Shown here: positions 2,927 through 45,182 of the stretch, piece by piece
Position numbering within the stretch: the first letter of the stretch is position 1
How the letters are laid out: each line of letters opens with the position of its first letter
NCBI RefSeq assembly: GCF_016595675.1
Contig: NZ_JAENJH010000002.1
Coordinates: 186,001 to 250,000, forward strand
Length of the DNA stretch: 64,000 nt
Source of the DNA: Prauserella cavernicola
GTDB taxonomy: Bacteria > Actinomycetota > Actinomycetes > Mycobacteriales > Pseudonocardiaceae
Direction of reading: 5' to 3'
The notes under the pieces: generated by a model
The model's database searches: none
Told to the model about the DNA's origin: nothing
What the model saw: only the letters and a program-made list of their open reading frames with translations
Translations under genes and position numbers: made by a program

Positions 2927-5424
2927 CGGGCACCTCCGGCCGCGATCGAGACGACGGAGCCGTGTCCGGCGCCGAGCGTGGCGCGGACCTTGGAGCCCGG
3001 CGAGTTGCCCGGCAGCCACACCACGCCGTCAGGCAGGTCGGCGACCACGATCGGCAGTGAGATCGACCCGCGGTCGGTCGAAACGGTGACGTGCCCGCCC
3101 AGTCCCTCCGCGGTGGCGGCCGACATCCTGGCGACCACGGCGCGAGCCGTTCCCGCCAGGTGCGGCTCGTCGATCAGCAGCGAGCCGTCGTCGATCAGCT
3201 GCCGCCAGGTCGCCAGCACGGCCTGTCCCGCACCCGGCGTGGCCGCCTGCTGATGCGGCACGTCCGGCGCTGCGGTGAAGGGCACCTTTACTGCATCAGA
3301 TGCAGTAAAGGTGCCCTTCACCGCAAGTCGCGCGAAGTCGCCCGCCGCAGCGGCTGGCGTCTGGGTGAAGAGGTCGGCGTCCATTTCCACGCCGAGGGTG
3401 TCCAGCACGCGGCAGTCCGGCAGCGCGCCCGTGCCCTCGAGCGAGACGGGGAACTCGCGGTGGCGGCCCTCCCAGTTGAGGAAGCTGCCCGCCTTCTCGT
3501 CCACCGGCGCGATGGGCAGCACCACGTCGGCGTGGTCGGTGACGCCGCTGGGCCGCATCTCCAGGCTCACCACGAAACCGGCCGCGGCGAGCGCCTCGCG
3601 CGCCAGCGCCGGGTCGGGCAGGTCGTTGGGGTCGACGCCGCCGACCACCAGGCCGTCGAGTTCGCCTGCGACGAGCGCGGTGAGGATTCCCGTGGTGTCG
3701 CGGCCCGGTTCGGCGGGCAGCGCTCCCTCGGCGAGTCCCCACACCTGCTCCACCTCGGTGCGAGCGGCGGCGTCGGTGACCGCGCGACCACCGGGCAGCA
3801 GCGTCGGCAGCGCGCCGACCTCCACCGCGCCGCGCTCGCCCGCCCTGCGCGGGATCCACGCGAGCCGGGCGCCGGTGCGCTCGGCCAGCCGGTGCAGCGC
3901 GGTGAACAGACCCGGGACCTCGGCGGCCCGCTCGCCGACGAGCACCACGGCGCCCTCGGCCCGGAGGCTCTCGTCGAGGTCGGGCGCGTGCTGGGCGATG
4001 CCCTCGACCGCGCTCGCCTCGGCGCCCGGCACGCAGGCGAGCAGCTCGCCGAACGTCCTGTCGACGGCCGGCGTCGTCCACTGTCCGATGTGGACCACCT
4101 GGGTGCCGCGGTTCCGAGCGCCCTTGCGCAGCCGCAGGAAGACCGCGGGGGCCTCCTCCTCCGGCTCGAAGGCCACGCACAGCACCAGCGGAGCGTGCTC
4201 CAGCGCGTGGAAGGTGACCCCGTTCTCGGGGCCGGTGCCCACCACACGGGAGCCGAGGAAGTCCAGCTCCTCGGCCGAGTGCGCCCTGGCCCTGAAGTCG
4301 ATGTCGTTGGTGCGCAACGCGACGCGGGCGAACTTGGCGTAGGAGTAGGCGTCCTCAACCGTCGACCTGCCACCGGAGAGCACCGCCGCGCCCTTGCCGT
4401 CGCGAGCCTTGGCCAGTCCCTCGGCCGCCGCCCGCAGCGCCTGCGTCCACGACGCCTCTTCGAGCTCACCGGTCTCGGCGTTGCGCACGAGCGGCGTGCG
4501 GATGCGATCGGAGGCGGTCGCGTAGCGGAACGCGAACCGGCCCTTGTCGCAGACCCACTCCTCGTTGACCTCGGGGTCCTCGCCCGCGAGCTTGCGCATC
4601 ACCTTGCCGCGCCGGAAGTCCGTGCGCTCCGCGCAGCCCGACGAGCAGTGCTCGCACACGCTCGGCGACGACACGAGGTCGAACGGCCGCGACCGGAACC
4701 GGTACTGCGCGCTGGTGAGCGCGCCGACCGGGCAGATCTGGATGGTGTTGCCGGAGAAGTAGCTCTGGAACGGCTTGCCGCTCGAGGTCCGCGACGCCAT
4801 GTCCAGCACGTCCGCGGTCTCCGCGGTACCGATCTGCTGGTGCGCGCCGCGCTCGAGCAGCTCGATGAACGGGTCGCCCGCGATCTGCGCGGAGAACCGC
4901 GTGCAGCGCTGGCAGAGCACGCACCGCTCGCGGTCGAGCAGCACCTGCGTCGAGATCGGCAGCGGCTTCGGGAACGTGCGCTTCTTGTCGCGGAAGCGCG
5001 ACTCCGGCCTGCCGTGCGCCATCGCCTGGTTCTGCAGCGGGCACTCGCCGCCCTTGTCGCAGATCGGGCAGTCCAGCGGGTGGTTGATCAGCAGCAGCTC
5101 CATCACGCCCTGCTGCGCCTTGTCGGCGACGGGCGAGGTGCGCTGCGTCTTGACCACCATGCCGTCGGCGACCGTCATCGTGCACGAAGCCTGCGGCTTC
5201 GGCATCGGCCTGCCGCCCATCTCCACCTCGACCAGGCACTGGCGGCACGCGCCTGCCGGGTCGAGCAGTGGGTGGTCGCAGAACCGCGGGACGACAGTGC
5301 CGAGCCGTTCGGCGGTGCGGATCAGCAACTCGCCCTTGGGCGCGATGACCTCTTCACCGTCGACGGTCAGTTTGACGTGACCCTCGGGTACTTCGACCTT
5401 GGGCTCTTCTGGAGCCATCGTCAT
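2923..5424 (-). CDS. nuoG: NADH-quinone oxidoreductase subunit G, with an in-frame palindromic insert
   Basis: Iron-sulfur and molybdopterin-oxidoreductase-like subunit of complex I (833 residues). The N-terminal 2Fe-2S domain has Cys49, 60, 63 and 81. It is followed by the [13 protein letters not shown] and [11 protein letters not shown] cluster motifs and by a CEHCSSGC motif for the extra N7 cluster found in only some bacteria. The molybdopterin-like domain runs to about residue 690 and a MopB-type C-terminal domain starts near 735. Residues about 700-718 are encoded by a 55-bp perfect palindrome that also occurs between genes elsewhere in the window. The reading frame stays open, and the insert sits in the linker between the two domains, where it may be tolerated. 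ATGA overlap with nuoF sets the start. Confidence 0.95.
3271..3325. repeat. Palindromic repeat copy 1, inside nuoG
   Basis: Perfect 25-base inverted repeat (arms 3271-3295 and 3301-3325, spacer TCAGA). It shares its arms with copies at 16390, 18522, 37886 and 40176. Read in the nuoG frame it encodes [18 protein letters not shown], with no stop codon. It is the only copy in a coding region. Perfect arms suggest recent arrival or active maintenance. Confidence 0.95.
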
Positions 5425-6704
5425 GCTTGTGCTCCCACCAGCTCACGCTTGTTGCTCTCACACAGCGCCAGGAACTCGTCCCGGAAGTACTTGATGCCGC
5501 TGGTGATGGGGCTGACCGCACCGTCACCGAGTGCGCAGAACGACCGGCCGAAGATGTTGTCGCAGACGTCGAGGAGGGTGTCGATGTCCTCTTCGGTGCC
5601 GTGACCGTCGACCATGCGCTCGAGGATCTGGGCGAGCCAGTACGTGCCCTCGCGGCACGGAGTGCACTTGCCGCAGGACTCGTGCTCGTAGAACTGCGTC
5701 CACTTCATCACTGCCCACGGCACCGACACGGTCTCGTTGAAGATCTGCACCGCGGTGGTGCCGAGCATCGAGCCGGCCTCGGCCGCGCCCTCGAAGTCCA
5801 GCGGCACGTCCAGGTGCTCAGCCGTGAACAGCGGCGTCGACGACCCGCCCGGCGTCCAGAACTTCAGCGGGATGCCGTCCTTCATGCCCCCGCACAGCTC
5901 CAGCAGCTCCCGCAGCGTGGTGCCCAGCGGAGCCTCGTACTGGCCGGGCCGCTCGACGTGACCGGAGATCGAGAAGATCTTCGGCCCCGGCGACTTCTCG
6001 CGGCCCATCTGACGGAACCAGTCGGCGCCGCCGTTGACGATGTAGGGCACGCTCGCGATCGTCTCGACGTTGTTCACCGTCGTCGGCGCGGCGTAGAGAC
6101 CCGCGGCGGCGGGGAACGGCGGCTTGAGCCTCGGCTGGCCGCGGCGACCCTCGAGCGAGTCGAGCAGCGCCGTCTCCTCACCGCAGATGTAGGCGCCGGC
6201 TCCCGCGTGGACGGTGAGCTCCAGGTCGAAGCCGGAGCCGAGGATGTCGGCGCCGAGGTAGCCCGCCGCCTGCGCCTCCCGGACCGCCGCGTTGAGCCTG
6301 CGGATCGGGTGCAGCGCCTCGCCGCGCACGTAGATGAAGCAGTGGTGCGAGCGCATCGCGTACGCCGCGATGACACAACCCTCGATGAGCGAGTGCGGGT
6401 CGGCCATCATCAGCGGGATGTCCTTGCAGGTTCCCGGCTCGCCCTCGTCGGCGTTGATCACGAGGTAGTGCGGCTTGTCCTCGTTGGGCGGCATGAACGA
6501 CCACTTGACGCCCGCCGGGAAGCCCGCACCGCCCCGGCCGCGCAGGCCGGAGTCCTTGACCAGCTGCACGAGCTGTTCCGGGGAGCCCTTGAGCGCCTTG
6601 CGCAGCGCCGAGTAGCCCTCGAGGTCCTCGTAGGTGGACAGCCGCCACGACTGCGGCGAGAGCCACCTCTTGGTGAGTACCGGGGTAATCGGATCGGCCG
6701 TCAT
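5421..6704 (-). CDS. nuoF: NADH-quinone oxidoreductase subunit F (NADH/FMN-binding)
   Basis: Entry subunit of complex I: binds NADH and FMN and holds 4Fe-4S cluster N3. The glycine-rich [10 protein letters not shown] loop at residues 56-65 and EPGTCKD near 89-95 match the FMN/NADH site. Cys344, 347, 350 and 390 are the N3 ligands ([11 protein letters not shown] and SFCALGDG). Length 427 residues is normal. The ATG at 6704 overlaps the nuoE stop as ATGA; much longer in-frame upstream sequence is open only because of high GC and lies on top of nuoE. Confidence 0.96.
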
Positions 6705-7561
6705 TTCGCCTCCACCTCCGGCAGCGGCGCGTCGTCCGCCATCGCTGGTGCCGTCCAGCCGCGGTCCGCGGCCAGTTGCGCGCCCCGCAACGTCTCCACG
6801 GCCTGCGACGGCCCGTCGACGTCGATGCGGTACGCCTCCTCGTCCTCGGGGAAGAACCCGGCGAGCTGGCGCTCCACGGCCTTGAAGTCCGAGAGCGGCG
6901 CCCCGCGCGTAGGGGCGGGCTTCTCCCCGCGCCGCAACGCGTCCACGAGCTCCACCGCCGAGTCCGGCGTCTGGTTGTCGTAGTACTCGTAGTTGACCTG
7001 CAGCACGGGACCGAGGTCGCACGCGGCGAGGCACTCGGCGTGCTCGATGGTGATCGAGCCCTGCTCGCCGGGAGTGCCCGCGGTCTGCTCGTGCCCGAGC
7101 GGTTTCCCGTCCTCGCCGAGGTGTTCTCCGAGTCGCTTGTAGATCGCGTCGCCGCCGAGTGCCGCGCACAGCGTGTTGGTGCACACGCTCACGAGGTGCT
7201 CGCCGCACGGCTTGCGCTTGTACATCGTGTAGAACGTGGCGACCGCGCTGACCTCGGCCTCGGAGAGCCCGAGCTGCTCGCCGCAGAAGGCGATGCCCTC
7301 CTGGCTCACGTAGCCCTGCACCGACTGCACCAGGTGCAGCATCGGCAGCAGCGCAGAACGCGACTGCGGGTAGCGGGCCGCCAGCGCCTGCGCCTCGGCC
7401 ACCGTGGCCGCGTCGAACGGGGAGGCCAGCGGCTCGTCGGCCAGCATGCCCTCCTCGCGCACCGGCGAGATGCCGACGACGTCGACGTCGGCACCGGCGG
7501 CGGCGAACGTCTCCTTGGCGGGCTCCGCGCCCGGCCTCGGCGTCTCCGACGGCGTGGTCAT
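6701..7561 (-). CDS. nuoE: NADH-quinone oxidoreductase subunit E (2Fe-2S)
   Basis: Thioredoxin-like 2Fe-2S subunit of the NADH module, carrying cluster N1a. The ligands are Cys127 and Cys132 (CTNTLC) and Cys177 and Cys181 (CLAAC). At 286 residues it is longer than enterobacterial NuoE because of an N-terminal extension of about 45 residues and an acidic C-terminal tail, both usual in actinobacteria. Start and stop overlap nuoD and nuoF by four bases each. Confidence 0.95.
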
Positions 7562-8928
7562 CGGTCCACTCCCCCCATCACCGGGTCGATCGAGGCGACC
7601 GCGGCGATCACGTCGGCGACCAGTCCGCCCTCCGACATCGCGGGCATCGACTGCAGATTCACGAAGCTCGGTTCGCGCACGTGGACGCGCAGCGGCCGGG
7701 TGCCCCCGTCGGAGACGAGGTGGAAGCCGAGCTCGCCGCGCGGCGACTCCACCGGCGCGTACACCTGGCCCGGCGGCACGTGGAAGCCCTCGGTCACGAG
7801 CTTGAAGTGGTGGATCAGCGACTCCATCGACTGACCCATGATCTTGCGGACGTGCTCGAGCGAGTTGCCCATGCCGTCGCTGGAGACCGACAGCTGCGCC
7901 GGCCACGCGACCTTCTTGTCCTCCACCATCACCGGGCCCGGCTCGAGGCGCTTGAGCACCTGCCGGACGATCTTCAGCGACTGGTGCATCTCCTCGACCC
8001 GGATCAGGTACCGGGCCCAGCAGTCGGCGTCGGTCGAGGTGGGGATGTCGAACTCGAACTCCTCGTAGCTCGAGTACGGCTCCACCTTGCGCAGGTCCCA
8101 CGGCAGGCCCGCGGAACGCAGCACCGGGCCGGTGACGCCGAGCGCGAGGCACGCGTCGACGGGCAGGTAGCCGACGCCCTTGAGCCGGTTGCGCCAGATC
8201 GGCTGACCGGTGAAGAGCTTGTCGTAGAGCGGAAGGCGCTCGTCCATCACCTTGCAGAAGCTGGTGACGGCCTCGTGGAAGTCCTCGGGCATGTCCTGCG
8301 CGAGCCCGCCGGGACGGATGAACGCGTGGTTCATGCGCAGACCGGTGAGGTGCTCCAGCAGGTGCAGCACTTCCTCCCGCTCGCGGAAGCCGAGCGTCAT
8401 CGCCGTGGTGGCACCGAGTTCCATGCCGCCGGTGGCGATGTAGACGAGGTGCGAGCCGATGCGGTTGAGCTCGAGCAGCAGGATGCGCAGCAGCTGCGCC
8501 CGCTTGGGCACCTCGATGTCGAGCAGCTTCTCGACGGCGAGGCAGTAGCCCATCTCGTTCGACAGCGGCGCGAGGTAGTCCATGCGCGTCACGAACGTGA
8601 CGCCCTGGGTCCACGTCCGGTACTCGCAGTTCTTCTCGATCCCGGTGTGCAGGTAGCCGATGACCGAGCGGAGCTGGGTGACGGTCTCGCCCTCCATCTC
8701 CAGCACGAGCCGGAGCACGCCGTGCGTCGACGGGTGCTGCGGGCCCATGTTGATGACCATGCGCTCGTCGTGCGAGGCGTCGGAGAGGACGTCGTCCCAG
8801 TCCCCGCCGCTGACCGTGTAGACACGGCCCTCGGTGGTCTCGCGGTGTTCGGCGTACCGGGTGTCCGAGCCCTCGGCCGTGGTGTCGGTGCCGGTCGTCG
8901 CGTCGGCGAGCCGATCGCTCGATGTCAT
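7558..8928 (-). CDS. nuoD: NADH-quinone oxidoreductase subunit D (49-kDa)
   Basis: Hydrogenase-derived subunit forming the quinone pocket with NuoB and NuoH. The 456-residue protein shows [15 protein letters not shown] (quinone-site His) near residue 60, then [11 protein letters not shown], and the C-terminal motif MGGVDR at the very end. An extra N-terminal stretch of about 45 polar residues precedes the conserved core. Separate nuoC and nuoD genes are present, unlike the fused nuoCD of enterobacteria. ATGA overlap with nuoC supports the start. Confidence 0.96.
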
Positions 8929-9716
8929 GAGTACGACCTCCGAGTGTCCGGCGGCGGGATCTCCGCGCCCTTGTACTCCACCGGGATCCCGCCGAGCGGG
9001 TAGTCCTTGCGCTGGGGGAACCCGTCCCAGTCGTCCGGCATCAGGATGCGCGTGAGCGCGGGGTGGCCGTCGTAGACGATGCCGAACATGTCGTAGGCCT
9101 CGCGCTCCTGCCAGTCGGCGGTCGGATAGACCTCCACAATGGAGGGAACATGGGGCGGGTCGTCAGGGTTGTCGCAGTCGAGCGTCACCTCGAGGCGGAT
9201 CCGGCGCCGGTACGTCATCGACGTCAGGTGGTACACCGAGTGCAGCCGCTGGGGCACGTCGACGCCGTAGTCCACGCCGGACACCGAGCTGCACAACTCG
9301 AACCGCAGCCCCGCGTCGTCGCGCAGCGTGCGGCAGATGGCGACGAGGTGGTCGCGGTCGACGTAGAACGTGATCTCGCCGCGGTCGACGGTCACCTGCT
9401 GCACGGACTCGGCGGGGATGCCGTTGTCGGCCAGCGCCGCGTAGAACTCGTCGGCGAACTCGTCGAACCAGCCGCCGTAGGGCCGCTCGGCGGGCGGCAC
9501 GGAGTACGCGGGCAGGCGGAGCCCGCCGTAACCGGAGGTGTCCCCGGTTCCCGAGACACCGAACATTCCCTTGCGTTGCCTGCCCGCGACCACGGGCTCG
9601 GCGGGACGGGCAGGCTCGGCGCTCGTCGGTTCGAGACCGCCCTCTGCCCGCTCGGCGCTCGACTGTCCCGCGCCGGGTTCCGGGTTCTCGGCGTGCCTCT
9701 CGTCATTCTCGGACAT
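8925..9716 (-). CDS. nuoC: NADH-quinone oxidoreductase subunit C (30-kDa)
   Basis: Peripheral-arm subunit without cofactors that packs against NuoD. The core contains the family signature around [20 protein letters not shown] followed by [19 protein letters not shown], close to the C-terminus. The first 75 residues are a low-complexity Glu/Pro/Ala-rich extension seen in actinobacterial NuoC. The start at 9716 lies 7 bases after the nuoB stop. Confidence 0.95.
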
Positions 9717-9723
9717 GGCAGAC

Positions 9724-10272
9724 CTACTTCTTCGCGTACTTGATCGACGACGGCACGATCGCGGTGGTCTCGCCGCTGGCCGCGCGGGCCGCGGCGCGGC
9801 GCGGGCCCATCGGCTCGTCCTGGATCTTGGCGTGCAGCTTGAGGATCGCGTCGAGGAGCATCTCCGGCCTCGGCGGACAGCCGGGCAGGTACATGTCCAC
9901 GGGAACGATGTGGTCGACGCCCTGCACGACGGCGTAGTTGTTGAACATGCCGCCGGAGGAGGCGCACACGCCCATCGCGATCACCCAGCGCGGCTCGGGC
10001 ATCTGGTCGTAGATCTGACGCAGGACGGGAGCCATCTTCTGGGTCACCCGGCCCGCCACGATCATCAGATCCGCCTGACGCGGCGTGGCACTGAAGCGCT
10101 CCATGCCGAACCGCGCGATGTCGTAGCGGGACCCGCCGGTGGTCATCATCTCGATGGCGCAGCAGGCGAGCCCGAACGTCGCGGGCCACAGGGAGTTCTT
10201 GCGAGCCCAGTTGACCACGCCCTCGAGCTTGGCCAGCAGGATTCCGTTGGGGAGATTCTCTTCGAGACCCAT
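9724..10272 (-). CDS. nuoB: NADH-quinone oxidoreductase subunit B (cluster N2)
   Basis: Subunit holding the terminal 4Fe-4S cluster N2 next to quinone. The 182-residue protein has the tandem Cys37-Cys38 (LACCAIEMM), Cys103 (GVCASSGG) and Cys132 (PGCPPRPE), the four N2 ligands. The ATG at 10272 matches the usual N-terminus ([10 protein letters not shown]); upstream in-frame codons belong to nuoA. It lies five bases after the nuoA stop. Confidence 0.96.
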
Positions 10273-10277
10273 AGCCC

Positions 10278-10700
10278 TCAGTTCCAATCCAGCCCGCCGC
10301 GCCGCCATACGTAGGCGTCGGCGATGAAGAAGGTTGCGATGAAGAGCGTGGCCGCCGCGACGCCCCACAGGCCGAGCGCGTCGGCCGAGACCGCGTACGG
10401 GAACAGGAACACCATCTCGATGTCGAAGAGGATGAACAGCATCGCGGTCACGTAGTAGGCGACCGGCATCCGCCCCGCGCCGACGAGCGGCTGCGGGGAC
10501 GGTTCGATGCCGCACTCGTAGGCCGAGAACTTTGCCCTGTTGAAACGACTCGGTCCGAGTAACGGCCCCAGCAGCACGGACAACGTCGCGAAGGCGAGCG
10601 CGAGGACGAAGATCAGCACCAGCGGCAGGTAGACACCGAGGCCGGCATCCGGGCCGCCTTGTGCCAACACCACTCCTGCCGAGGCAACCGATGAGTTCAC
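10278..10700 (-). CDS. nuoA: NADH-quinone oxidoreductase subunit A
   Basis: First gene of the nuo operon; three-helix membrane subunit. Helices at about residues 23-45, 82-103 and 108-130; the conserved loop [11 protein letters not shown] and the [20 protein letters not shown] segment are present. The GTG start at 10700 is preceded by AAAGGATGG about eight bases upstream. The 400-bp region before it holds the presumed operon control sites. Confidence 0.95.
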
Positions 10701-10794
10701 TGCGGCACCATCCTTTCCGCGCCGCTGCGTTACGGACGTGTGTTCTGCGCGACTTCTGGGCGGGACCCTAAGGGATCTGGCTCACACCTCTGAG

Positions 10795-10810
10795 AGTTAG
10801 GCCACCCTTA
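10795..10810 (+). repeat. AGTTAGGccACCCTTA motif, copy 1
   Basis: 16-mer matching 14 of 16 bases with the minus-strand 16-mer at 10964-10979, so the two copies face opposite ways and flank the Rex sites. The GTTAGG...ACC half sites recall DtxR/IdeR-type iron boxes, but the fit is incomplete. It overlaps the candidate nuo -10. Confidence 0.45.
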
Positions 10811-10824
10811 CCCGGCGTGTTCAA
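10795..10824 (-). promoter_or_regulatory. Candidate nuo operon promoter
   Basis: Minus strand -35 TTGAAC (10824-10819) and -10-like CTAACT (10800-10795) with an 18-base spacer. It would give a leader of about 85 bases. The -10 fits only loosely, and the Rex sites lie 30-80 bases upstream of it rather than on it, so a second promoter inside the Rex sites is possible. Confidence 0.3.
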
Positions 10825-10857
10825 CCACCGCGGTCACCACCTTCGAACAGAACTCCG

Positions 10858-10877
10858 CTTGTGAAAAGGTTCACAAG
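10858..10877. promoter_or_regulatory. Rex operator (ROP) 1 upstream of nuo
   Basis: Perfect palindrome CTTGTGAA-AAGG-TTCACAAG. It contains TTGTGAA-N4-TTCACAA, which agrees with the Rex operator described for Streptomyces. Rex itself is encoded at 44113-44940. Centre-to-centre distance to the second site is 32 bp, about three helical turns. Confidence 0.8.
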
Positions 10878-10890
10878 CTTCTCGTCGAAG

Positions 10891-10908
10891 TTGTGAAGCC
10901 GTTCACAA
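10891..10908. promoter_or_regulatory. Rex operator (ROP) 2 upstream of nuo
   Basis: Perfect palindrome TTGTGAA-GCCG-TTCACAA, same arms and spacer length as the site at 10858. Two intact sites on the same helix face suggest cooperative or looped Rex binding on the nuo operon. Confidence 0.8.
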
Positions 10909-10963
10909 AGCATGCCCGCAGTGTAGGACGCGACTCACAGCGTTGTCGCTAGCAGGCGTGGTA

Positions 10964-10979
10964 TAAGGGTTACCTAACT
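10964..10979 (-). repeat. AGTTAGGtaACCCTTA motif, copy 2
   Basis: Minus-strand partner of the motif at 10795-10810, identical at 14 of 16 positions. It lies about 120 bases beyond the menJ stop, on the far side of the Rex sites from nuoA. Function unknown. Confidence 0.45.
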
Positions 10980-11048
10980 TGCAGCGCGACGAGGCGGGCA
11001 CGCACGGTCGCCCGAGTACGGCGACCAGCACAAAAGCGACGAAAGTCC

Positions 11049-11079
11049 GCGCTGTCAGCGCCCGGAGTACAGCCGTACT
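11049..11079 (-). terminator. Candidate menJ terminator hairpins
   Basis: Two adjacent 5-bp hairpins (GCGCT-GTC-AGCGC at 11049-11061 and AGTAC-AGCC-GTACT at 11066-11079), followed on the minus strand by a T-rich stretch ending CGCTTTT. They start 20 bases past the menJ stop. Stems are short, so termination is only plausible. Confidence 0.35.
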
Positions 11080-11100
11080 GTGAGGTTTCCCACGTGCCGA

Positions 11101-12369
11101 TCAGGCACTCGGAGCGACGCGTGCGAGCGCCGCGATGATCCGGTCGACCCCGTCGCCGCCCTTCGCGTCGTAGCAACCCGAGAGGCCCTTGTAGATCAGC
11201 GGGATGAGCGGATTGACGCGCAGGCCGTACTTCGTGGCCGCGCGCATCACCTTCGGCTTGCCGATCGCCTTGGCGAAGACGTTGCCGAGCCGGTAGTAGC
11301 CGCCCATGAGGTCCGACAGCGCGCGCGGGTAGCCGCTCAGCGCGCGCTCGCGCGAAGGGCCTTCCGGCCGCGCGAGTGCCTGCACGACGTGCTCGGCCGC
11401 CAGTTGCGCCGACTCCATCGCCGCCGAGATGCCCTCGCCGTTGAACGGGCTGACCATGCCGCCCGCGTCGCCGAGCAGCAGCAGGCCGTCGCGGTAGTGC
11501 GGAGTGCGGTTGAAGCCCATCGGCAGCCCGGCGCCGCCGATCTTGCCGACGGCGTTCTCCTCGCGGTAGCCCCATTCCTCGGGCGTCGAGTCGAGCCACG
11601 AGCGCATCAGCGCGCGGTAGTCGGTGTTGCGGAAGGACTTCGACGTCGACAACATGCCGAGCCCGACGTTCACCGTGCCGTCGCCGAGCGGGAAGGCCCA
11701 GCCGTAGCCGGGCAGCAGTTCGGGCCTGCGCGGATCGGAACGGTCCCACAGCTCGAGGTGGCCCTCGATGTAGGCGTCGTCGTGACGCGGGCTCTTGTAG
11801 TAGCGGCGCACCGCCACGCCCATCGGGCGCTTCTCGTTCTTGTCGATGCCCACCGACAGCGCGAGGCGCGCGGAGACGCCGTCGCACGCGAGCACCAGCG
11901 GAGCGCGGTAGGTGACCGGCGTCTTCTCGGGGCCCACCTTGGCCTCGACGCCGACCACCCGGCCCGCGGCGTTGGTGACCGCTCCCGTGACCGTGGTGCG
12001 CTCGTACAGCCTGGCCCCGGCCTTGACGGCCGTCTTGGCCAGCAGGTCGTCGAAGTCGTGCCGGGTGCGCGAGACACCGTAGGGCGGGTAGCTCGTCAGG
12101 TCCGGCCAGTCCAGCTCGAGCGTCAGGTCGCCGGTGAGGATGCGCAGCCCCCTGCTGTGCACCCAGCCCGCGTCCTGGCTCGTGTCGAGGCCGAGGTCGA
12201 TGAGCTGCTTCACCCCGCGCGGCGTGAGGCCGTCGCCGCACACCTTCTCGCGGGGGAAGGTGGTCTTCTCGAGCAGCAGCACGTCCACGCCCGAGCGGGC
12301 GAGGTACGTGGCCACCGTCGATCCGGCGGGTCCCGCACCGACGACGATGACCTCGGCGTCCTGAGTCAT
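11101..12369 (-). CDS. menJ: Geranylgeranyl-reductase family flavoprotein (menaquinone MenJ type)
   Basis: FAD-dependent oxidoreductase of 422 residues that likely saturates one isoprene unit of the menaquinone side chain, as the mycobacterial Rv0561c product does. Visible signatures: N-terminal dinucleotide fold VIVVGAGPAGSTVATYLA (8-25), the EKTTFPREKVCGDGL family segment, and the second FAD motif LLLLGDAGGMVSPFNGEGI near residue 300. It lies 39 bases downstream of menG on the same strand, which supports a menaquinone rather than chlorophyll or archaeal lipid role. The exact substrate is inferred. Confidence 0.85.
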   Translation of the reverse strand: MTQDAEVIVVGAGPAGSTVATYLARSGVDVLLLEKTTFPREKVCGDGLTPRGVKQLIDLGLDTSQDAGWVHSRGLRILTGDLTLELDWPDLTSYPPYGVSRTRHDFDDLLAKTAVKAGARLYERTTVTGAVTNAAGRVVGVEAKVGPEKTPVTYRAPLVLACDGVSARLALSVGIDKNEKRPMGVAVRRYYKSPRHDDAYIEGHLELWDRSDPRRPELLPGYGWAFPLGDGTVNVGLGMLSTSKSFRNTDYRALMRSWLDSTPEEWGYREENAVGKIGGAGLPMGFNRTPHYRDGLLLLGDAGGMVSPFNGEGISAAMESAQLAAEHVVQALARPEGPSRERALSGYPRALSDLMGGYYRLGNVFAKAIGKPKVMRAATKYGLRVNPLIPLIYKGLSGCYDAKGGDGVDRIIAALARVAPSA

Positions 12370-12408
12370 GCGGCCGAGTCTACGGAAGGCGCGCGGCGGC
12401 CCTTCCGC

Positions 12409-13107: not shown

Positions 13108-13116
13108 GCCCGGAGT

Positions 13117-15341: not shown

Positions 15342-15517
15342 ATACCGGACTCTGGCAGCGGTCAGGGGCACCAGGGCCACGGACACGTAACGGCAGAGAC
15401 AACGGCGCCGGAACTTCTGCACCGCGATGTCACAACGTGTAGTCGTTCAGAAATCGCGAGCGACTTGTCATCTCCATGTCGTGTGCCGGACACTCGGCGC
15501 CGCCACATTAGAGACGC

Positions 15518-16389: not shown

Positions 16390-16442
16390 GCGGTGAAGGG
16401 CACCTTTACTGCATCTAACGCAGTAAAGGTGCCCTTCACCGC
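16390..16442. repeat. Palindromic repeat copy 2, between convergent genes
   Basis: Perfect 23-base inverted repeat (arms 16390-16412 and 16420-16442, spacer ATCTAAC). It fills the gap between the plus-strand phosphatase and the minus-strand DUF3592 gene, where a bidirectional terminator would be expected. There is no U-tract on either side. Confidence 0.95.
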
Positions 16443-18521: not shown

Positions 18522-18576
18522 TGCGGTGAAGGGCACCTTTACTGCGTTCAACGCAGTAAAGGTGCCCTTCACCGCA
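18522..18576. repeat. Palindromic repeat copy 3, between menD and the M1 peptidase gene
   Basis: The longest perfect copy: 27-base arms (18522-18548 and 18550-18576) around a single central C. It lies 24 bases past the menD stop and 70 bases before the peptidase start, both on the minus strand, so it could terminate menD transcription. Confidence 0.95.
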
Positions 18577-36867: not shown

Positions 36868-37863
36868 CTATGCCTTTTCCCGGTCGAGCCAGGTCGCGGC
36901 CTCAGCGGCCCAGTAGGTGAGGATCATGTCGGCCCCCGCGCGGCGGATCGACGTGAGCACCTCGAGCACCGTCCGCTCCCGTTCGAGCCAGCCGTTGGCG
37001 ACGGCGGCCTCGACCATCGCGTACTCGCCGGAGATGTTGTAAGCCGCGACCGGCACCGGCGACAGCTCGGCGGCGGCCTTGATGACATCCAAATAGGACA
37101 GTGCGGGCTTGACCATGATCGCGTCGGCGCCCTCGGCGAGGTCGAGTTCGATCTCGCGCAGCGCCTCGCGGGCGTTGCCCGGGTCCTGCTGGTAGGTCTT
37201 GCGGTCGCCCTTGAGCTGGGAGTCCACCGCCTCGCGGAACGGGCCGTAGAACGCGCTGGCGTACTTGGCCGAGTAGGCGAGGATTCCGGTGTCGGCGTAG
37301 CCGGCGTCGTCGAGCGCGCGGCGGATCACGCCGACCTGGCCGTCCATCATTCCGCTCGGGCCGAGCACGTGGGCGCCGGCTCGGGCCTGCGCGATCGCCA
37401 TCTCGGCGTAGCGCTCCAGCGTCGCGTCGTTGTCCACGGTGTCCTCACCGGCCTCGCCGCGCCGTAGTACACCGCAGTGGCCGTGGTCGGTGAACTCGTC
37501 GAGGCACGTGTCGGCCATCAGCACGGTGTCGTCGCCGAGCTCGGCCCGCAGGTCGCGCAGGGCGACGTTGAGCACGCCATTCTCGTCGGTGGCACCGGAA
37601 CCCACCGCGTCGTGGACCTTCGGTACGCCGAACAGCATCAGCCCGCCGACGCCCGCGCGCACCGCCTCGACGGCGGCCTTGCGCAGCGAGTCGCGGCTGT
37701 GCTGGACGACGCCCGGCATGCTGCTGATGGGTCGCGGCGCGTCGGCGCCCTCCGCGACGAACATGGGCAGGATCAGCTGACGTGGCCGCAGCGTGGTCTC
37801 GCTGACCAGGCGCCGCATGGCCGCCGTACCCCGCAACCTGCGGGGCCGATGCTCGGGAAACAC
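36868..37863 (-). CDS. hemB: Delta-aminolevulinic acid dehydratase (porphobilinogen synthase)
   Basis: Condenses two 5-aminolevulinates. About 331 residues with active-site lysines Lys200 ([14 protein letters not shown]) and Lys252 ([10 protein letters not shown]), and the cysteine-containing metal segment [16 protein letters not shown]. The GTG at 37863 gives the usual [11 protein letters not shown] start; GTGs at 37872 and 37884 are alternatives, the last being closer to the palindrome. A GAGGAG lies 13 bases upstream of the chosen start. Confidence 0.92.
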
Positions 37864-37885: not shown

Positions 37886-37946
37886 GAATGCAGTGAAGGG
37901 CACCCTGCCTGCGTTGAATGCAGTAAAGGTGCCCTTCACCGCATTC
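37886..37946. repeat. Palindromic repeat copy 4, degenerate, upstream of hemB
   Basis: Outer arms GAATGCAGTGAAGGGCACC (37886-37904) and its partner 37928-37946 pair with one mismatch. The inner arm CTGCCTGC has drifted from the TTTACTGC of other copies. It lies between divergent hemB and lacI, 23 bases upstream of the chosen hemB start, so it cannot serve only as a terminator. Confidence 0.88.
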
Positions 37947-38051: not shown

Positions 38052-39047
38052 ATGGCCACGATCCACGACGTCGCGCGGCTCGCCGGAGTGTCGACGTCGA
38101 CGGTGTCCCGCGTGCTGTCCCGTTCGCGGGCGGTCCATCCCGAGTCCGAAGCGAAGGTCCTCGCCGCGGCCGAGGAGCTGGGCTACCGGCACAACGCCGT
38201 CGCCAGGGCACTGCGCACCAGCCGTTCGCACACCATCGGCATGCTCGTGCCGCAGATCTCCAACCCGTTCTTCCCCGCGCTCGTGGAGGCCGTCGAACGC
38301 CGCCTCGACCGTGAGGGCCTCGTGCTGTTCCTGTGCGACTCGCAGCGGGACGCCGAGGTGGAGGCACGCAGGCTGCTCGCGCTGGTCGACCGCCAGGTGG
38401 ACGGCGTGATCATCACCCCGTTCGACGCCACCGCGAGCGTGGCGGCGGTGCGCGGAGTCCTCGGCCGGCTCCCTGTCATCCAGGCGATCCGGTGCGTCGA
38501 GGGCTCGCTCACCGACTGGGTCGGCGTCGACGACGAGACGGGCTTCCGCCTGCTCGTCGACCACCTGGTGGCGGCGGGCAGGCGCAGGCTGGTGTTCGTG
38601 AGCGCGGCGCCGGAGACGAACTCCTCGGCGCAGCGCAGGCTGGACGCCGTCGACGCGGCACTGCGCGCCCACGGTCTGACGGCGGCGCAGGAGCCGCTGC
38701 TCGGGCGGTTCGAGGTCGACTGGGGCCTCGATGCCGCCGAACGCGTCGACCTGAGCGCCGTCGACGGGATCGTGTGCGGCAACGACGCGATCGCGCTGGG
38801 GATGCTGCGCGGACTGCGCAGGGCGGGCGTGAGCGTGCCGGGGCAGGTGGCGGTCACGGGTTTCGACGACATCAGCTACGCCGAGATCTCCGACCCGCCG
38901 CTGACCACGGTGCGTCAGGAGTGGGACGCACTGGCCGACGCGTGTGTACGACTGCTGCTGCATCCCAGCGACGACGGGCCCCGCTGCGCCGCGATCGCAC
39001 CTACGCTGCAGGTACGCGAGTCCACTCCGAGTCTGGAGGCGACATGA
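38052..39047 (+). CDS. LacI family transcriptional regulator
   Basis: 331 residues. N-terminal LacI DNA-binding helix-turn-helix and hinge MATIHDVARLAGVSTSTVSR and ALRTSRSHTIG, then a periplasmic-binding-like ligand domain (GMLVPQISNPFFPALVEAVE... VDGVIITPFDA... GFDDISYAEISDPPLTTV). Its stop overlaps the M20 gene start as ATGA, so it likely controls its own operon with that hydrolase. Effector unknown. It is divergent from hemB. Confidence 0.9.
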   Translation: MATIHDVARLAGVSTSTVSRVLSRSRAVHPESEAKVLAAAEELGYRHNAVARALRTSRSHTIGMLVPQISNPFFPALVEAVERRLDREGLVLFLCDSQRDAEVEARRLLALVDRQVDGVIITPFDATASVAAVRGVLGRLPVIQAIRCVEGSLTDWVGVDDETGFRLLVDHLVAAGRRRLVFVSAAPETNSSAQRRLDAVDAALRAHGLTAAQEPLLGRFEVDWGLDAAERVDLSAVDGIVCGNDAIALGMLRGLRRAGVSVPGQVAVTGFDDISYAEISDPPLTTVRQEWDALADACVRLLLHPSDDGPRCAAIAPTLQVRESTPSLEAT

Positions 39048-40162
39048 GTGTCGACGTGCACAACCTGACCAGAGAACTCGTGGCGCTCGACACGATCGGG
39101 CACGCCGAGAGCGACGCGCTCGCTGTGGTGGCGCCACTGCTGGAGAAGGCGGGCTTCTCCGTGGAGATCGCCGAGCACGAGCCCGGCAGGGGCACGCTGA
39201 TAGCCGAGTGGCACGCCGGGCTGGACGAGCCGCCGCTGTGCCTGTCCGGCCACGTCGACACGGTGCCGCTGGGTGCGGCACCGTGGCAGCACGACCCGTT
39301 TCACGCCGAACCCGACGGCGACCGCCTGCACGGCAGGGGCACCAGCGACATGAAGGGCGGCGTGGCGGCGATCGTCGCGGCGGCCACGCGGATCGCCACG
39401 TTGAGCCCGCGCAGGGCGGGCCTGCGGCTGGTGCTCACCGCCGCGGAGGAGACCGGTTCGGCAGGCGCCCGGCTGGCCGCCGAACGACTCACCGGCAGGC
39501 CCAGCGGGCCGCTGGTGATCACCGAACCCACCGGAAACGCCGTGTTCAACGGCCACAAGGGCGCGCTGTGGCTCTCGGCGAGGGCCGGCGGTGTCACCGC
39601 GCACGGCTCGATGCCGCACCTCGGCGACAACGCCGTCTACAAGCTGGCGCGCGCGGTCGGCAGGCTGGAGTCCTACGCCTTCGACGCGCGGCCGCACGCC
39701 GTGATGGGAGCGCCGACGCTCAACGTGGGCACGTTCCAGGGCGGGCTCAACACCAACTCGGTGCCCGACAGCGCGGAGGCCACCGTCGACGTGCGCACCG
39801 TCGCGGGGCAGGACCACCGCGAGGTGCTGGCGAGCCTCGCCAGGCGGGCGGGCGACGAGGTGCGGCTGGCGCCGCTGATCGACCTGCCGCCGGTGTGGAC
39901 CGAGCCCGGCGACGAGTGGACCGAGTCGGTGGCGGAGATCGCCCGCGAGATCAGCGGGCACGGCGAGGGACCGCCGAGGGCTGCGAGCTACTTCACCGAC
40001 GCCTCAGTGCTGACGCCCGCGTTCGGCCTGGTGCCCACGGTGATCTGCGGGCCGGGTGAGGCCGAGCAGGCGCACGTGACCGACGAGTGGGTCTCGCTCA
40101 CCAAACTCGCCGATTCGGTGGCGATCCTGGAACGCATCGCCGTCGACTGGTGCGGCACCTGA
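39044..40162 (+). CDS. M20 family metallopeptidase/deacylase
   Basis: 372-residue dinuclear zinc amidohydrolase of the ArgE/DapE/CPG2 group. Metal and catalytic motifs: GHVDTVPLG, GRGTSDMKGGVAAI, AAEETGSAGA (catalytic Glu) and VITEPTGNAVFNGHKG. The dimerisation domain is present (VGTFQGGLNTNSVPD). Substrate could be an acylated amino acid or a peptide. The coupling to a LacI regulator suggests a catabolic role induced by its substrate. Confidence 0.85.
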   Translation: MSVDVHNLTRELVALDTIGHAESDALAVVAPLLEKAGFSVEIAEHEPGRGTLIAEWHAGLDEPPLCLSGHVDTVPLGAAPWQHDPFHAEPDGDRLHGRGTSDMKGGVAAIVAAATRIATLSPRRAGLRLVLTAAEETGSAGARLAAERLTGRPSGPLVITEPTGNAVFNGHKGALWLSARAGGVTAHGSMPHLGDNAVYKLARAVGRLESYAFDARPHAVMGAPTLNVGTFQGGLNTNSVPDSAEATVDVRTVAGQDHREVLASLARRAGDEVRLAPLIDLPPVWTEPGDEWTESVAEIAREISGHGEGPPRAASYFTDASVLTPAFGLVPTVICGPGEAEQAHVTDEWVSLTKLADSVAILERIAVDWCGT

Positions 40163-40175: not shown

Positions 40176-40228
40176 GCGGTGAAGGGCACCTTTACTGCGT
40201 TGAACGCGGTAAAGGTGCCCTTCACTGC
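40176..40228. repeat. Palindromic repeat copy 5, between convergent genes
   Basis: 26-base arms (40176-40201 and 40203-40228) around one G. Two positions differ between arms, and both would be G-U pairs in RNA from the plus strand (A-C in the minus). It lies 13 bases after the M20 stop and 12 bases before the hemD-fusion stop, as a terminator would. Confidence 0.93.
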
Positions 40229-40240: not shown

Positions 40241-41773
40241 TCAGGAGCGGCGGGCGCGCTTGGCCTTGCGGGGCGGCGGCAGTGCGCCTTCGGCGCGCAG
40301 CTTGGCCGCGTGGTCGGCGAGCGCGTCGACCAGGTCGATCACGTTCGGCTTCTCCGGCTGCACGTCCACGCGCAGGCCGAACTCCGTCGCCGTCTCGGCC
40401 GTCTTCGGGCCGATGCACGCCACGAGCGTGCGCGCGTGCGGCTTGCCCGCGATGCCCACGAGGTTGCGGACCGTGGAGGACGAGGTGAAGCACACCGCGT
40501 CGAAACCACCGGTCTTGATCATCTCGCGGGTCTCCGCCGGTGGCGGCGCGGCCCGCACGGTGCGGTACGCGGTCACGTCGTCGATCTCCCAGCCGCGGTC
40601 GCGCAGCCCGGCCGACAACGTCTCGGTGGCGATGTCGGCACGCGGCAGCAGCACGCGGTCAACGGGGTCGAGCACGTCGTCGTAGGGCGGGAACTCCGCG
40701 AGCAGGCCCTCGCTCGACTGCTCGCCGGAGGGCACGAGCTCGGGGATGATCCCGAACGAACGCACCTTCTCGGCGGTCGACTCACCGACGCAGGCGATCT
40801 TGACGCCGGAAAACGCGCGGGCGTCGAGACCGAACTCCGCGAACTTCTCCCACACCGCACGCACCGCGTTGGTGGAGGTGAACACGATCCACTGGTAGCG
40901 GCCGTCGACGAGGCCCTTCACCGCGCGCTCCATCTGCGCGGGGCTGCGCGGCGGCTCCACGGAGATGGTCGGCACCTCGTGCGAGGTGGCACCGTGGCTG
41001 CGGAGCCGGTCGGCCATGTCGCCCGCCTGCTCCTTGGTGCGCGGCACCAGGACCTTCCAGCCGTACAGCGCGCGCGACTCCCACCACGAGAGCTTCGAGC
41101 GGTTGCCGACGACGGAGCCGATGCTCACCACGAGCGGGCCCACCAGCTCGCCCGCGTCGGCGGCGAGGGTGGCCAGCGTCGAGTCGACGGTGCGCTGGGT
41201 GTTGATGGTGCCGTTGGAGGTGACGGCCACCGGGGTCTGCGGGGAGAGCCCGTTCTCGACCAGCGCCGAGGCGGCCTCGGCCAGGTGGCTCGACGTCGCG
41301 TGCAGCACGATCGTGCCCGGCGTGCGCGCCAGGCCCGCCCAGTCGACGTCGCTACGGACGTCGACCTCGGTGTGCGCGCCGCCGAGTGCCACGCCCGCAT
41401 AGGCGGGCACGGCGGCACCGGGCGAGACGCCGGGCACCACGTCGAACACGGCGCTCGTGCGCGAGACGGCGTTCACCTCGGCCACGACGGCGGACTGGGT
41501 CAACGGGTCGCCTGCGACGAGCCGGAGCACCAGGCGGCCTGCCTTGGCCTCGTTGGTCAGGTCCTTGGCGACGTCACCGGGTTCGCCGACTGCCGGGCGC
41601 ACCTCCGCGTCGGGCCCGGCGAAAGCCAGCGCACCGGCTGGCACGTCCGGGTCGGTCACCACGAGCTCGGCCTTGGCGAGCAGTTCCTGGGCACGGACCG
41701 TCAGCAGTCCGGCATCGCCGGGGCCCGAGCCCACGAAGGCGACGCGCCCCGTGGTCTTGCGTGCGCGGGTCAT
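40241..41773 (-). CDS. hemD: Fused uroporphyrinogen-III C-methyltransferase / uroporphyrinogen-III synthase
   Basis: 510 residues. The N-terminal half (1-235) looks like a SAM-dependent uroporphyrinogen methyltransferase: VAFVGSGPGDAGLLTVRAQE, RLVAGDPLTQS and VVPGVSPGAAVPAYAGV. The second half (about 240-495) is HemD: GWKVLVPRTKEQAGDMADRL, VFTSTNAVRAVWEKF and FTSSSTVRNLVG. This fusion is usual in actinobacteria (Rv0511 in mycobacteria). In the first domain some catalytic motifs look relaxed (GDPLTQS instead of GDPFVFGRG), so methyltransferase activity is not assured. AGAGGAGAG precedes the ATG. Confidence 0.9.
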   Translation of the reverse strand: MTRARKTTGRVAFVGSGPGDAGLLTVRAQELLAKAELVVTDPDVPAGALAFAGPDAEVRPAVGEPGDVAKDLTNEAKAGRLVLRLVAGDPLTQSAVVAEVNAVSRTSAVFDVVPGVSPGAAVPAYAGVALGGAHTEVDVRSDVDWAGLARTPGTIVLHATSSHLAEAASALVENGLSPQTPVAVTSNGTINTQRTVDSTLATLAADAGELVGPLVVSIGSVVGNRSKLSWWESRALYGWKVLVPRTKEQAGDMADRLRSHGATSHEVPTISVEPPRSPAQMERAVKGLVDGRYQWIVFTSTNAVRAVWEKFAEFGLDARAFSGVKIACVGESTAEKVRSFGIIPELVPSGEQSSEGLLAEFPPYDDVLDPVDRVLLPRADIATETLSAGLRDRGWEIDDVTAYRTVRAAPPPAETREMIKTGGFDAVCFTSSSTVRNLVGIAGKPHARTLVACIGPKTAETATEFGLRVDVQPEKPNVIDLVDALADHAAKLRAEGALPPPRKAKRARRS

Positions 41774-42801: not shown

Positions 42802-44116
42802 CGTCGATCTGATCGTGCTTGGCGCCTGCCGAGGGGCTGGACACGACGCTGGGCGCCTGCGGGTCGAGCTCGAACAGCTCGCGCAGCGCGTTGGCGTAGT
42901 CGGTGTCCTGTGTCTCGGCGGCGAGTTGCTTCACGCGCACGGTCGGCGCGTGCAGGAGCTTGTCCACGACCCTGCGGACCGTGCGGCCCAGCTCGTCGCG
43001 GACCGAGTCGTCGAGTTCGGGCAGCCGCTTGTCGAGCCGCAGCAGCTCGGAGTCCACGACCTCGGCGGCACGCTTGCGCAGCGCGGTCACCGTCGGCGTG
43101 ACGGCCGCACTGCGCTGACCGGCCAGGTAGGTGCGCACCTCGTCGAGCACGATGCCCGCGGCCTTCGCGGTCTGCCGATCGGTGGTGCCGCTGCCTGCCT
43201 CGTGCATGCGGCGGCGGACCGTTTCCAGGTCCACCACGGTGACCCCGGCGACCTCGGCCACCTCGGGGTCGACGTCGCGGGGCAGGCCGAGGTCGCAGAT
43301 GACCACGGGTGCGTCCGTGCGCGGCGCGACGTGCTCGGTGCCGAGCACCGCGTCCTTCGCGCCCGTGCACACCATCACCAGCTCGGCCTGCGCGACGGCG
43401 TCGGCCAGCGACGACATCGGCACGGCGCGGGCCGGAACACCCTGCTCGGCCACGGACGCGGCGAGCCGCTCGGCGTTGACGAGGGTGCGGTTGGCCACGG
43501 TGATCTCACCGATGCCCGCCTTGCGCAGCTGCGACGCGGCGAGCGCACCCATCGAGCCCGCGCCGACGATCAGCGCGCGCTGCCCGGCTGGCTCACCAGC
43601 GGCCGCGAGCGCCTCGGACACCACGGAGGCGCCCAGTGCGTCCAGTCCGGTCTCGGTGTGCACCCGCTTGCCGACGCGCAGTGTCGTCTGCACGAGCTCG
43701 TGCAGGACCCGGCCGACGGTCCCCGCCTCGCGGGCCGTGGCGTAGGCGGCCCTGACCTGACCCAGGATCTGCGTCTCGCCGACCACCATCGAGTCGAGGC
43801 CGGATGCGACGGAGAACACGTGCTCCACCGCGGCGCCCGCGTAGTGCACGTAGAAGTTGTCGTAGAGCTCCTGCGCCTCCATGCCGGCCTGGCGGGCCAG
43901 CACGTCGGCGATGTCACCGAGGCCGCCGTGGAACGTCTCGACGACCGCGTAGACCTCGATGCGGTTGCACGTCGAGAGCAGCATGACCTCGGACACGTGC
44001 TCGGTCTGCTGCAGCTCGTGCAGAACCTTGCCCAGCTCGGCGGCGGGCACGGCGGCCCGCTCGAGCGTGGTGAGGTCGGCGGTGCGGTGGGAGAGCCCGA
44101 TCGCGAGGATGCTCAC
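42785..44116 (-). CDS. hemA: Glutamyl-tRNA reductase
   Basis: First committed heme enzyme in the C5 pathway. 443 residues with nucleophile Cys50 in [11 protein letters not shown], substrate-site [23 protein letters not shown] fold [17 protein letters not shown] near 180, and a C-terminal dimerisation helix region. GTG start overlaps the rex stop as GTGA, so HemA output is tied to Rex expression. Confidence 0.95.
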
Positions 44117-44940
44117 GACGGCACCACCGCCCCGTTACCGGCGACGGCGGGGTCGACGACCTTGCCGTTCAGCTCGTTGTCCGCCCTCCGCGCAACGTGG
44201 AAGGACAGGATCTGCAGTTCCACAGCCAGGTCGACCTTTCGCACCTCGACATGTTCCGGCACTTGCAGCACCACCGGAGCGAAATTCAGGATGCACTGCA
44301 CCCCGCCGGCGACGAGCCGGTCACACACCGTCTGGGCCGCGGCGGGCGGCGTCGCGAGGACTCCGATGGAGATCTGGCGCTCGGCGCACACCTGCGGAAT
44401 GTCGTCGAGGTGTGACACCGGAATGCCGCCCACCGGCACCCCGACCAGATCCGGGTCGATGTCGAAGAGTGCTTCGACCGGAAACCCGCGACCGGGGAAG
44501 CCGCCGTAGTTCGCCAACGCATGTCCGAGGTTACCGATTCCCGCGACGGCGACCTTGTGCTGCCGCGTGAGGCCCAGTGTGCGCTCGATCTGGCCGACGA
44601 GCACGGCCACTTCGTAACCGACGCCACGTGTGCCGTACGAGCCGATGTAGGAGAGGTCCTTGCGCAGCTTGGCGGAGTTCACGCCCGCCGCGGCGGAGAG
44701 TTCCTCGCTGGAGACGGTGGTGGCGCCCTGCTCGGCCATCGCGGAGAGGATCCGCAGGTAGACGGCCAGGCGGGCGACCGCGGCCTCGGGAATCGACTTG
44801 GCTCGCGCCTCCGGGTAGGCGGCGGTCGCGGACACCGCGGGCAACTCGGCGGTCGGCGCGTTGTCGGCGTCCGGCGTGCCGGGCGGCCGGGTGCGCTTGT
44901 GCGCGGCGGCTCCGTTTCGCCGGCCCCGCTGTGCCACCAC
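44113..44940 (-). CDS. rex: Redox-sensing transcriptional repressor Rex
   Basis: 275 residues. Winged helix near 50-110 ([48 protein letters not shown]) then a Rossmann NADH-binding domain with [20 protein letters not shown] around 130-149. Rex releases DNA at high NADH/NAD+. The GTG at 44940 was chosen because AGGAGAG lies seven bases upstream; starting at 45030 would add 30 residues translated from the leader. It heads a rex-hemA-hemC-hemD run, the arrangement known as a Rex-autoregulated operon in Streptomyces. Confidence 0.95.
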
Positions 44941-45061: not shown

Positions 45062-45141
45062 AGTGGCTGGTGAGCCCCCTGAAATCGCTGCGGGAACCCC
45101 GTTTCTGACGCTCTGTCAGCATTTTCGCCCTGGATACGGCA

Positions 45142-45182
45142 AAGGCCACCTTGATCGCGTCGAGCGCAACCAAGGTGGCCTT
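45142..45182. repeat. Palindromic repeat copy 6, divergent variant
   Basis: 12-base perfect arms AAGGCCACCTTG (45142-45153) and CAAGGTGGCCTT (45171-45182). It aligns with the other copies along its length, including the outer CACTGC, but G-C and T-A pairs are swapped to C-G and G-C, preserving the stem. It lies 28 bases beyond the fasciclin gene stop and 80 bases upstream of the rex promoter. Confidence 0.8.

Follow-up and report, generated by a model that had tools for sequence, protein, structure and literature searches.

A family of gene-end palindromes in Prauserella with different sequences at shared sites in related species

Introduction

Several systems of short inverted repeats dispersed among bacterial genes have been described, and are cited here from passages of the respective papers. 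Repetitive extragenic palindromic sequences (REPs) are found in gaps between convergent and between codirectional genes, at times also within genes (PMC3733652), and REP doublets forming hairpins (REPINs) are tied to REP-associated tyrosine transposases (RAYTs) (PMC3116915). DNA uptake sequences (DUS) occur in dialects and as paired copies at terminators (PMC3630211, PMC1852404), and intragenic positions are common among them (PMC3630211). Spaced palindromic motif pairs near gene 3′ ends are known from other genomes, for example A. ebreus, where 107 intergenic pairs comprise 44 between convergent, 4 between divergent and 59 between co-oriented genes (PMC5217627). Transcript ends with a hairpin and no U tract have been reported in Streptomyces clavuligerus (PMC8269248). 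Here we analyse a family of about 55-bp palindromes from Prauserella cavernicola (Pseudonocardiaceae), first noticed in a stretch of 64,000 nucleotides (assembly GCF_016595675.1, contig NZ_JAENJH010000002.1, positions 186,001 to 250,000), hereafter the window. Among the papers listed by full-text literature searches, no recognisable description of such a family was found for Pseudonocardiaceae or Prauserella.

Results

One palindrome is repeated through the P. cavernicola genome

An earlier note on the window had listed six palindromes. All six were recovered where it placed them by a palindrome search and alignment of the window (Table 1), and the core that it quoted, GTGAAGGGCACCTTTACTGC, is correct. 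The last of them, which it took for a variant of the same form, is instead a different sequence and one of only three places in the genome that carry an old core, AAGGCCACC...GGTGGCCTT. The window holds five near-identical palindromes of about 55 bases, with arms of 23–30 bp that are 83–100% complementary, and one old-style relic with 18-bp arms that are 89% complementary. With up to three mismatches allowed, 123 forward and 121 reverse arms were counted in the 7.2-Mb genome against 0 and 0 in the reversed sequence used as control, a copy number far above chance. Both arms carry the exact 9-bp core, AAGGGCACC-23-GGTGCCCTT, in 121 palindromes (control 0), and the family has about 120 copies in this genome. 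The claim that the arms are nearly identical across copies is borne out: this is a repeated family, with one sequence shared through the genome.

The form of the element was examined in 77 of about 121–127 copies, taken from loci around 71 exact-arm copies and from the window; the relic is outside this set. Its limits are sharp, 27 bases on each side of the centre with ends TGCGG...CCGCA, and outside them there is only a weak preference for CCGA/TCGG. The 7-base centre has few alleles (ATTGAAC 31, GTTGAAC 19, GTTGAAT 8, GTTGGAT 7, others one or two each). The copies are mutually 0.95 identical, in a sample biased upward by the choice of loci around exact-arm copies, and their predicted fold has a mean of −48 kcal/mol. 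At one locus (L022, 1500-1680; C4:69309-69477), two palindromes of the P. cavernicola type stand in tandem at a distance of 122 bp, and the inner arm of the second is different.

The copies lie mainly at gene 3′ ends

The earlier note had seen the palindromes in every kind of position. Positions are indeed mixed within the window, but genome-wide 72 of the 77 copies lie at 3′ gene ends: 54 between convergent and 18 between codirectional genes, the others being 3 copies in divergent gaps and 2 within genes. The mix in the window is a small-sample effect, unrepresentative of the copies examined genome-wide. Genes were called with a codon-usage caller made for this analysis, the start sites of which may be wrong; it missed a gene between two copies in locus L068, so that one of the 54 copies counted as convergent is probably codirectional. 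There (4070-5148), two palindromes of the P. cavernicola type 1.1 kb apart flank a minus-strand frame of about 328 codons that does not look like a transposase by eye and presumably resembles a DUF559/AbiEi-type protein. Codirectional copies begin 6–61 nt (median 21.5) after the 3′ end of the upstream gene, with a median of 91.5 nt to the next gene. The copy-free gaps of at least 50 bp in the same loci, which were chosen around copies, comprise 121 codirectional, 86 divergent and 6 convergent gaps.

Placement was also counted in unselected DNA of two relatives, 336 kb of P. endophytica and 340 kb of P. flavalba. The 22 elements of the former comprise 13 between convergent genes, 6 between codirectional genes and 3 inside genes; the 23 of the latter, 15 convergent, 4 codirectional, 1 divergent and 3 inside genes. 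Among gaps of at least 40 bp, an element is present in P. endophytica in 12/32 convergent, 6/93 codirectional and 0/58 divergent gaps (convergent versus divergent, Fisher 8e-7), and in P. flavalba in 13/29, 4/97 and 1/55, respectively (Fisher 1e-6). Because of this enrichment in convergent over divergent gaps, the family is regarded as mainly a gene-end hairpin, and probably a U-less bidirectional terminator. Copies from two genomes each of two other genera (g15 and g19) are placed similarly, with 16 of 22 between convergent genes, 6 between codirectional genes and none between divergent genes. Gaps that are free of the element fold below −25 kcal/mol in 71% of 24 convergent cases versus 20% of 97 divergent ones. 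The divergent copy of the window (37886) has a counterpart in P. endophytica and P. flavalba whose distance to the 3′ end of a different minus-strand gene is 1 nt; in P. cavernicola another gene occupies the position of that neighbour.

A strong hairpin at 3′ ends, enriched between convergent genes, is the placement of a bidirectional U-less terminator, and not of a U-rich intrinsic one: a T run (at least 5 T in 8) was found beside the hairpin on 1 of 154 sides. A promoter and terminator consensus scan of window positions 1-20000 picked up no copy of the palindrome, as expected in the absence of a T run, and the window had no match to Rfam at gathering scores.

Related species carry different palindromes at the same sites

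Four genomes of the genus were compared, namely P. cavernicola (G000), P. endophytica (G001), P. flavalba (G002) and a fourth, G003; G001 and G002 were assigned to their species because loci of P. endophytica and P. flavalba match stretches of them at 100% over 7,530 bp. Exact-core palindromes with the new and the old core number 121:3 in P. cavernicola, 0:275 in P. endophytica and 2:279 in P. flavalba. Intermediates are nearly absent, as the inclusion of copies that depart by one core base or mix the cores adds only 3, 5 and 7, respectively (3/127, 5/280 and 7/288). Core identity among the compared elements is 1.0 by construction, since exact cores were the criterion of selection, and no argument here rests on it.

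Ten P. cavernicola sites, the six of the window and four adjoining it, were compared with their counterparts. All ten are occupied in P. flavalba, including a half-unit at 16390, a single unit at L048 and two long forms, one of which adjoins an extra stretch of about 1.8 kb. Nine sites lie within the stretch fetched from P. endophytica; eight are occupied, and the site beside L047 is empty. At none of the compared sites does either species carry the P. cavernicola core. At six sites, the 55-mers of P. cavernicola and its relatives are 0.56–0.87 identical, and the flanks 85–94%. The site of copy 2 holds a single half-unit in both relatives, that of copy 3 a long form of about 115–120 bp, and that of copy 5 different palindromes; copy 4 is a mosaic, with the left inner arm of P. 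endophytica and the new core. Empty sites, which the earlier note had proposed to look for as a sign of mobility, do occur at a few places, but most comparable sites are shared with the two relatives. The main difference between the species is the sequence of the palindrome at the same site and not a new insertion. It is possible, and we hold this tentatively, that the dialect of the whole genome was switched without a dedicated transposase, nearly every copy being rewritten in place to a new complementary core, including those in nuoG and in a non-ribosomal peptide synthetase (NRPS) gene described below. The extra 1.8-kb stretch of P. flavalba, at the second site of L048, was considered as an autonomous element and dropped, as no transposase was seen in it; its frames include SnoaL-like, glyoxalase-like and LuxR-like proteins, recognised by eye without a family search.

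Between the two relatives, the flanks of the sites are mostly 91–97% identical. The counts leave out 2 P. endophytica and 7 P. flavalba elements with no usable matching site. Of 22 P. endophytica elements, 20 were located in P. flavalba (18 filled, 2 empty), and of 23 P. flavalba elements 16 were located in P. endophytica (14 filled, 2 empty). Thirteen of the 18 shared filled sites have the same type and unit number, four differ in type, and one has four units versus one. Non-core identity is 0.80 at 13 site pairs, which were chosen with exact cores.

In G003, no arm matched at three mismatches and no paired core at one mismatch, and the compared sites carry unrelated hairpins or none. Of 80 relatives fetched, the 18 nearest named ones were inspected by eye downstream of hemD, and 17 have a hairpin right after the stop codon, with many different sequences. 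Since hairpins of differing sequence occur at the same places, both here and in G003, it is the gene-end place that calls for a hairpin, and the palindrome family is the local supply from which it is often filled. Three-arm versions with a 30-bp period and other cores follow hemD in Saccharomonospora relatives (L120 4556-4630; L121, L123 and L124 after 4530). The first 190 bases after hemD in L116 and L117 contain tandem repeats, of the AATGCCACATT type in Amycolatopsis palatopharyngis and of the CGTGTCGCGCG type in A. antarctica; these may be further families of gene-end repeats.

Two copies inside genes carry the dialect of the genome

Copy 1 falls after the molybdopterin domain of nuoG. The 200 C-terminal residues of NuoG are read through in all four genomes, and the G003 protein, encoded without the palindrome, is shorter by 10 residues at this place. 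P. endophytica and P. flavalba have a type b palindrome (see below) within the same 55-bp boundaries, with DNA flanks 88–91% identical; the peptide encoded by the palindrome is almost completely different between P. cavernicola and these two species, and the flanking residues match. The second intragenic copy of P. cavernicola lies in frame in the NRPS gene, which has no stop in 3902 codons. At this site, P. endophytica has a type b palindrome and P. flavalba one unit of type a; the gap differences are 15 and 30 bp. Both intragenic copies carry the dialect of the P. cavernicola genome.

Termination is hardly what selects copies inside genes. Their sharing of the genome dialect therefore points to copying between copies, or to a factor that reads the core, and is the best single argument against terminator selection alone. 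The earlier note had reasoned that a family confined to 3′ ends would be just a terminator family; this describes most of the family, but a plain terminator would explain neither the core difference seen genome-wide nor the two copies in coding frame. That the palindromes are only ordinary terminators, made similar by their shared function, would agree with their 3′-end placement and strong fold. However, a hairpin does not need 9+9 identical core bases in 121 copies, several of the same sites hold unrelated hairpins in G003 and other relatives, and the nuoG and NRPS copies hold the same dialect in frame. This reading is very improbable and is strongly disfavoured.

Two arm types in the two relatives

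P. endophytica and P. flavalba have two arm types, a (GCAGTG-core) and b (CCCCC-core). Assortment of the arms was tested in the first 50 listed of the 275 P. endophytica palindromes and the first 22 of the 279 of P. flavalba. In P. endophytica, the type a inner-arm alleles of the two sides pair as if at random, with 6 identical pairs against 7.0 expected (n=30).

No Y1 transposase in the genus and no consistent target duplication were found

The earlier note proposed that the palindromes are moved in trans by a REP transposase. This received no support from a search for the transposase family PF01797, which was absent from the four genomes of the genus (0/4), in a search where the control gave a match in 5/14, and was found in 2 of 16 other element-bearing genomes. 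The Y1 genes are in two genomes of another genus, and the remaining 14 element bearers tested were without them. Flanking matches of k=2-8, tried at half-lengths 23-33, gave no consistent excess indicative of a target-site duplication, only scattered small ones (e.g. 4 versus 1.2 at k=3). Neither GTAG nor CGTC stands at the unit end in the column table of the 77 copies.

The element has the architecture of REPs and REPINs, two inverted short palindromic units in many, mainly extragenic copies, and could be a non-autonomous mobile element of this kind, mobilised by an undetected transposase, with new copies landing in or beside old ones and being kept at gene ends. The two-arm build, the single half-units and the tandem and long forms mirror REP singlets, REPINs and bacterial interspersed mosaic elements (BIMEs), two relatives hold hundreds of copies, some sites differ by presence or absence, and passages on published REPs also place them mostly between codirectional and convergent genes (PMC3733652). 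We nevertheless regard it as unlikely, given the PF01797 counts (other transposase families were not searched), the lack of a consistent target duplication, and the fact that most comparable sites are common to the species and that the few aligned sites show no clean junction of an insertion. It is scarcely credible that the palindromes are classical miniature inverted-repeat transposable elements (MITEs) of a DDE-type insertion sequence. Some copies do consist of inverted ends around a longer internal part, but no boundary tested showed a consistent target-site duplication; this is a weak point of the argument in that a parent insertion sequence was not systematically searched.

The architecture recurs in part of the family

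The architecture AAGG-3-CCTT-3-TGC-7-GCA-3-AAGG-3-CCTT was found in 33 of 297 genomes of Pseudonocardiaceae and in 12 of 46 genera (control 0), and its middle triplets differ among the genomes listed. In a sample of the order, it was present in 6 of 15 genomes of the family versus 1 of 106 others. Related arms were found in 40 of the 150 genomes of the family searched, many of which gave no more than one or two chance-like matches; the control also matches once in some genomes.

Copies of the window, long forms and a separate hairpin

The positions are collected in Table 1. The start of the gene at 16947-18452 next to copy 3 is uncertain. The long forms (about 115–120 bp) have the same arms around a shared internal stretch with a GGAGACGG / CCGTCTCC core and its own hairpin; this internal motif was not found in the P. 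cavernicola loci examined. The internal part of one long form is inverted between P. endophytica and P. flavalba, and P. endophytica has a tandem of three arms at 84-bp spacing with a fourth arm at 276624. A separate hairpin, GGGGGTCGCCGAGCGGCCACTCGGCGACCCCC, at about 17791-17822 of L106 and at matching places in P. endophytica, P. flavalba and L047, is kept in all four genomes, with one difference in P. cavernicola. It is unlike the palindrome family and had no Rfam hit over threshold (G003 82179, joined stretch), with a sub-threshold hit nearby.

Table 1. Palindromes and related features (positions in the 64-kb window unless another locus or genome is named)
Feature	Position	Form	Context
Copy 1	3271..3325	perfect 27-bp arms, 1-nt centre	inside nuoG (2923-5424, minus); encodes part of C-terminal linker, in frame
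Copy 2	16390..16442	23-bp arms, 7-nt centre	convergent genes 15518-16360 (+) / 16445-16924 (-)
Copy 3	18522..18576	perfect 27-bp arms	23 nt past 3′ end of 18600-20279 (-), upstream of 16947-18452 (-)
Copy 4	37886..37946	imperfect arms (83%)	between hemB (36868-37818 -) and LacI-type gene (38052 +)
Copy 5	40176..40228	26-bp arms (92%)	convergent genes 39044-40162 (+) / hemD-type 40241-41773 (-)
Copy 6, relic	45142..45182	old core AAGGCCACC...GGTGGCCTT	codirectional genes 44113-44940 (-) / 45210-45896 (-)
Gap without palindrome	52351..52367		convergent genes; type b palindrome here in P. endophytica and P. flavalba
Long forms, examples	L113 4531 on; G001 33642, 114852, 124229 (joined stretches)		

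Discussion

On balance, we consider it probable that these dispersed 3′-end palindromes are bidirectional U-less terminators or 3′-end barriers whose copies overwrite each other by short-tract copying. Transcription from either side would yield a U-less hairpin of about 26 bp, placed immediately downstream of stop codons and most of all where two genes converge. The placement observed and the predicted fold suggest that such hairpins may act as bidirectional U-less terminators, or as barriers or protection of 3′ ends. The different palindromes found at the same sites suggest in turn that copies may overwrite each other by short-tract, non-reciprocal copying, through ectopic gene conversion or hairpin template switching. 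In this way, a lineage would end with one dialect in nearly all copies, the sites largely staying put, and copies would persist wherever a hairpin helps or does no harm, at gene ends and, in rare cases, as in-frame parts of genes. Gene conversion was reportedly raised for the evolution of REPs by Higgins in 1988, in the title of that paper.

Several observations weigh against this explanation. Tracts of about 20–55 bp are short for RecA-dependent conversion. Type a palindromes of P. flavalba show an excess of identical pairs (6 versus 2.5 expected, n=11, P 0.02), and types a and b are mixed between arms in 0/72 palindromes, as if whole palindromes were copied or pairing were selected. Presence or absence at 2/20 and 2/16 located sites indicates that insertion or loss also happens, and some elements of the relatives are called inside genes (3/22 in P. 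endophytica and 3/23 in P. flavalba). Finally, the near-invariance of the core with freer arms would also fit a core-reading protein. Such a DNA- or RNA-binding factor (an uptake receptor, a nucleoid protein or a termination factor), whose change of specificity moved all copies together, would resemble the dialects of Neisseria DUS. It would account for the near-complete conservation of the core within a genome while the rest varies (the non-core value of 0.80 at 13 pairs), and passages on DUS dialects describe inverted pairs at terminators as well (PMC3630211, PMC1852404). We find this explanation quite improbable, as two arm types with discrete alleles in one genome do not readily arise from point mutation under selection. 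Moreover, DUS are often single and common in genes, and would number about 1000 or more with many copies unpaired or intragenic; here there are 244 arms, most of them paired in 121 palindromes, and 2 of 77 copies inside genes.

If the dialect switch is true, many gene ends of Pseudonocardiaceae would form a self-homogenising sequence population, maintained by short-tract conversion (molecular drive) or by a core-reading enzyme. In some members of this actinomycete family, many gene ends are occupied by a repeat that turns over, a point that would bear on the prediction of terminators and, in antibiotic producers, on genome engineering. The palindromes also offer a tractable system for asking how hundreds of short dispersed repeats stay identical in one genome yet differ between species, since close relatives allow the old dialect to be set against the new at each site.

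Among known systems, U-less (I-shaped) terminators of high-GC bacteria likewise form strong gene-end hairpins without a T run, but are defined by their fold and not by a sequence shared genome-wide. The motif pairs of PMC5217627 are also a short shared pair, present in tens to about a hundred copies, often where genes converge, and of unknown function; they differ in sequence and phyla, and the passages of that paper contain no dialect comparison at orthologous sites. Rickettsia palindromic elements (RPE) and intragenic REPs resemble the nuoG and NRPS copies as in-frame palindromes in genes, whereas here only 2 of the 77 copies examined are intragenic. REPs, REPINs and BIMEs with their RAYTs share short inverted units occurring as singles, pairs and tandems, hundreds of copies per genome, species specificity, and a location mostly downstream of genes and sometimes inside them. 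In contrast to them, the present element has no GTAG/CGTC tag at its sharp boundary, no Y1 transposase was found in the four genomes of the genus, the arms lie 7 nt apart in one 55-bp palindrome, and the core differs at the same sites between species. The inverted-pair terminators formed by DUS and uptake signal sequences (USS) in Neisseria and Pasteurellaceae share the inverted fixed core between convergent genes and the species dialects. Here, however, the arms are longer, copies far fewer, unpaired and intragenic copies rare, and two arm types occur in relatives. The palindrome family has traits in common with both REPINs and DUS, fails a defining test of each, and is a member of neither.

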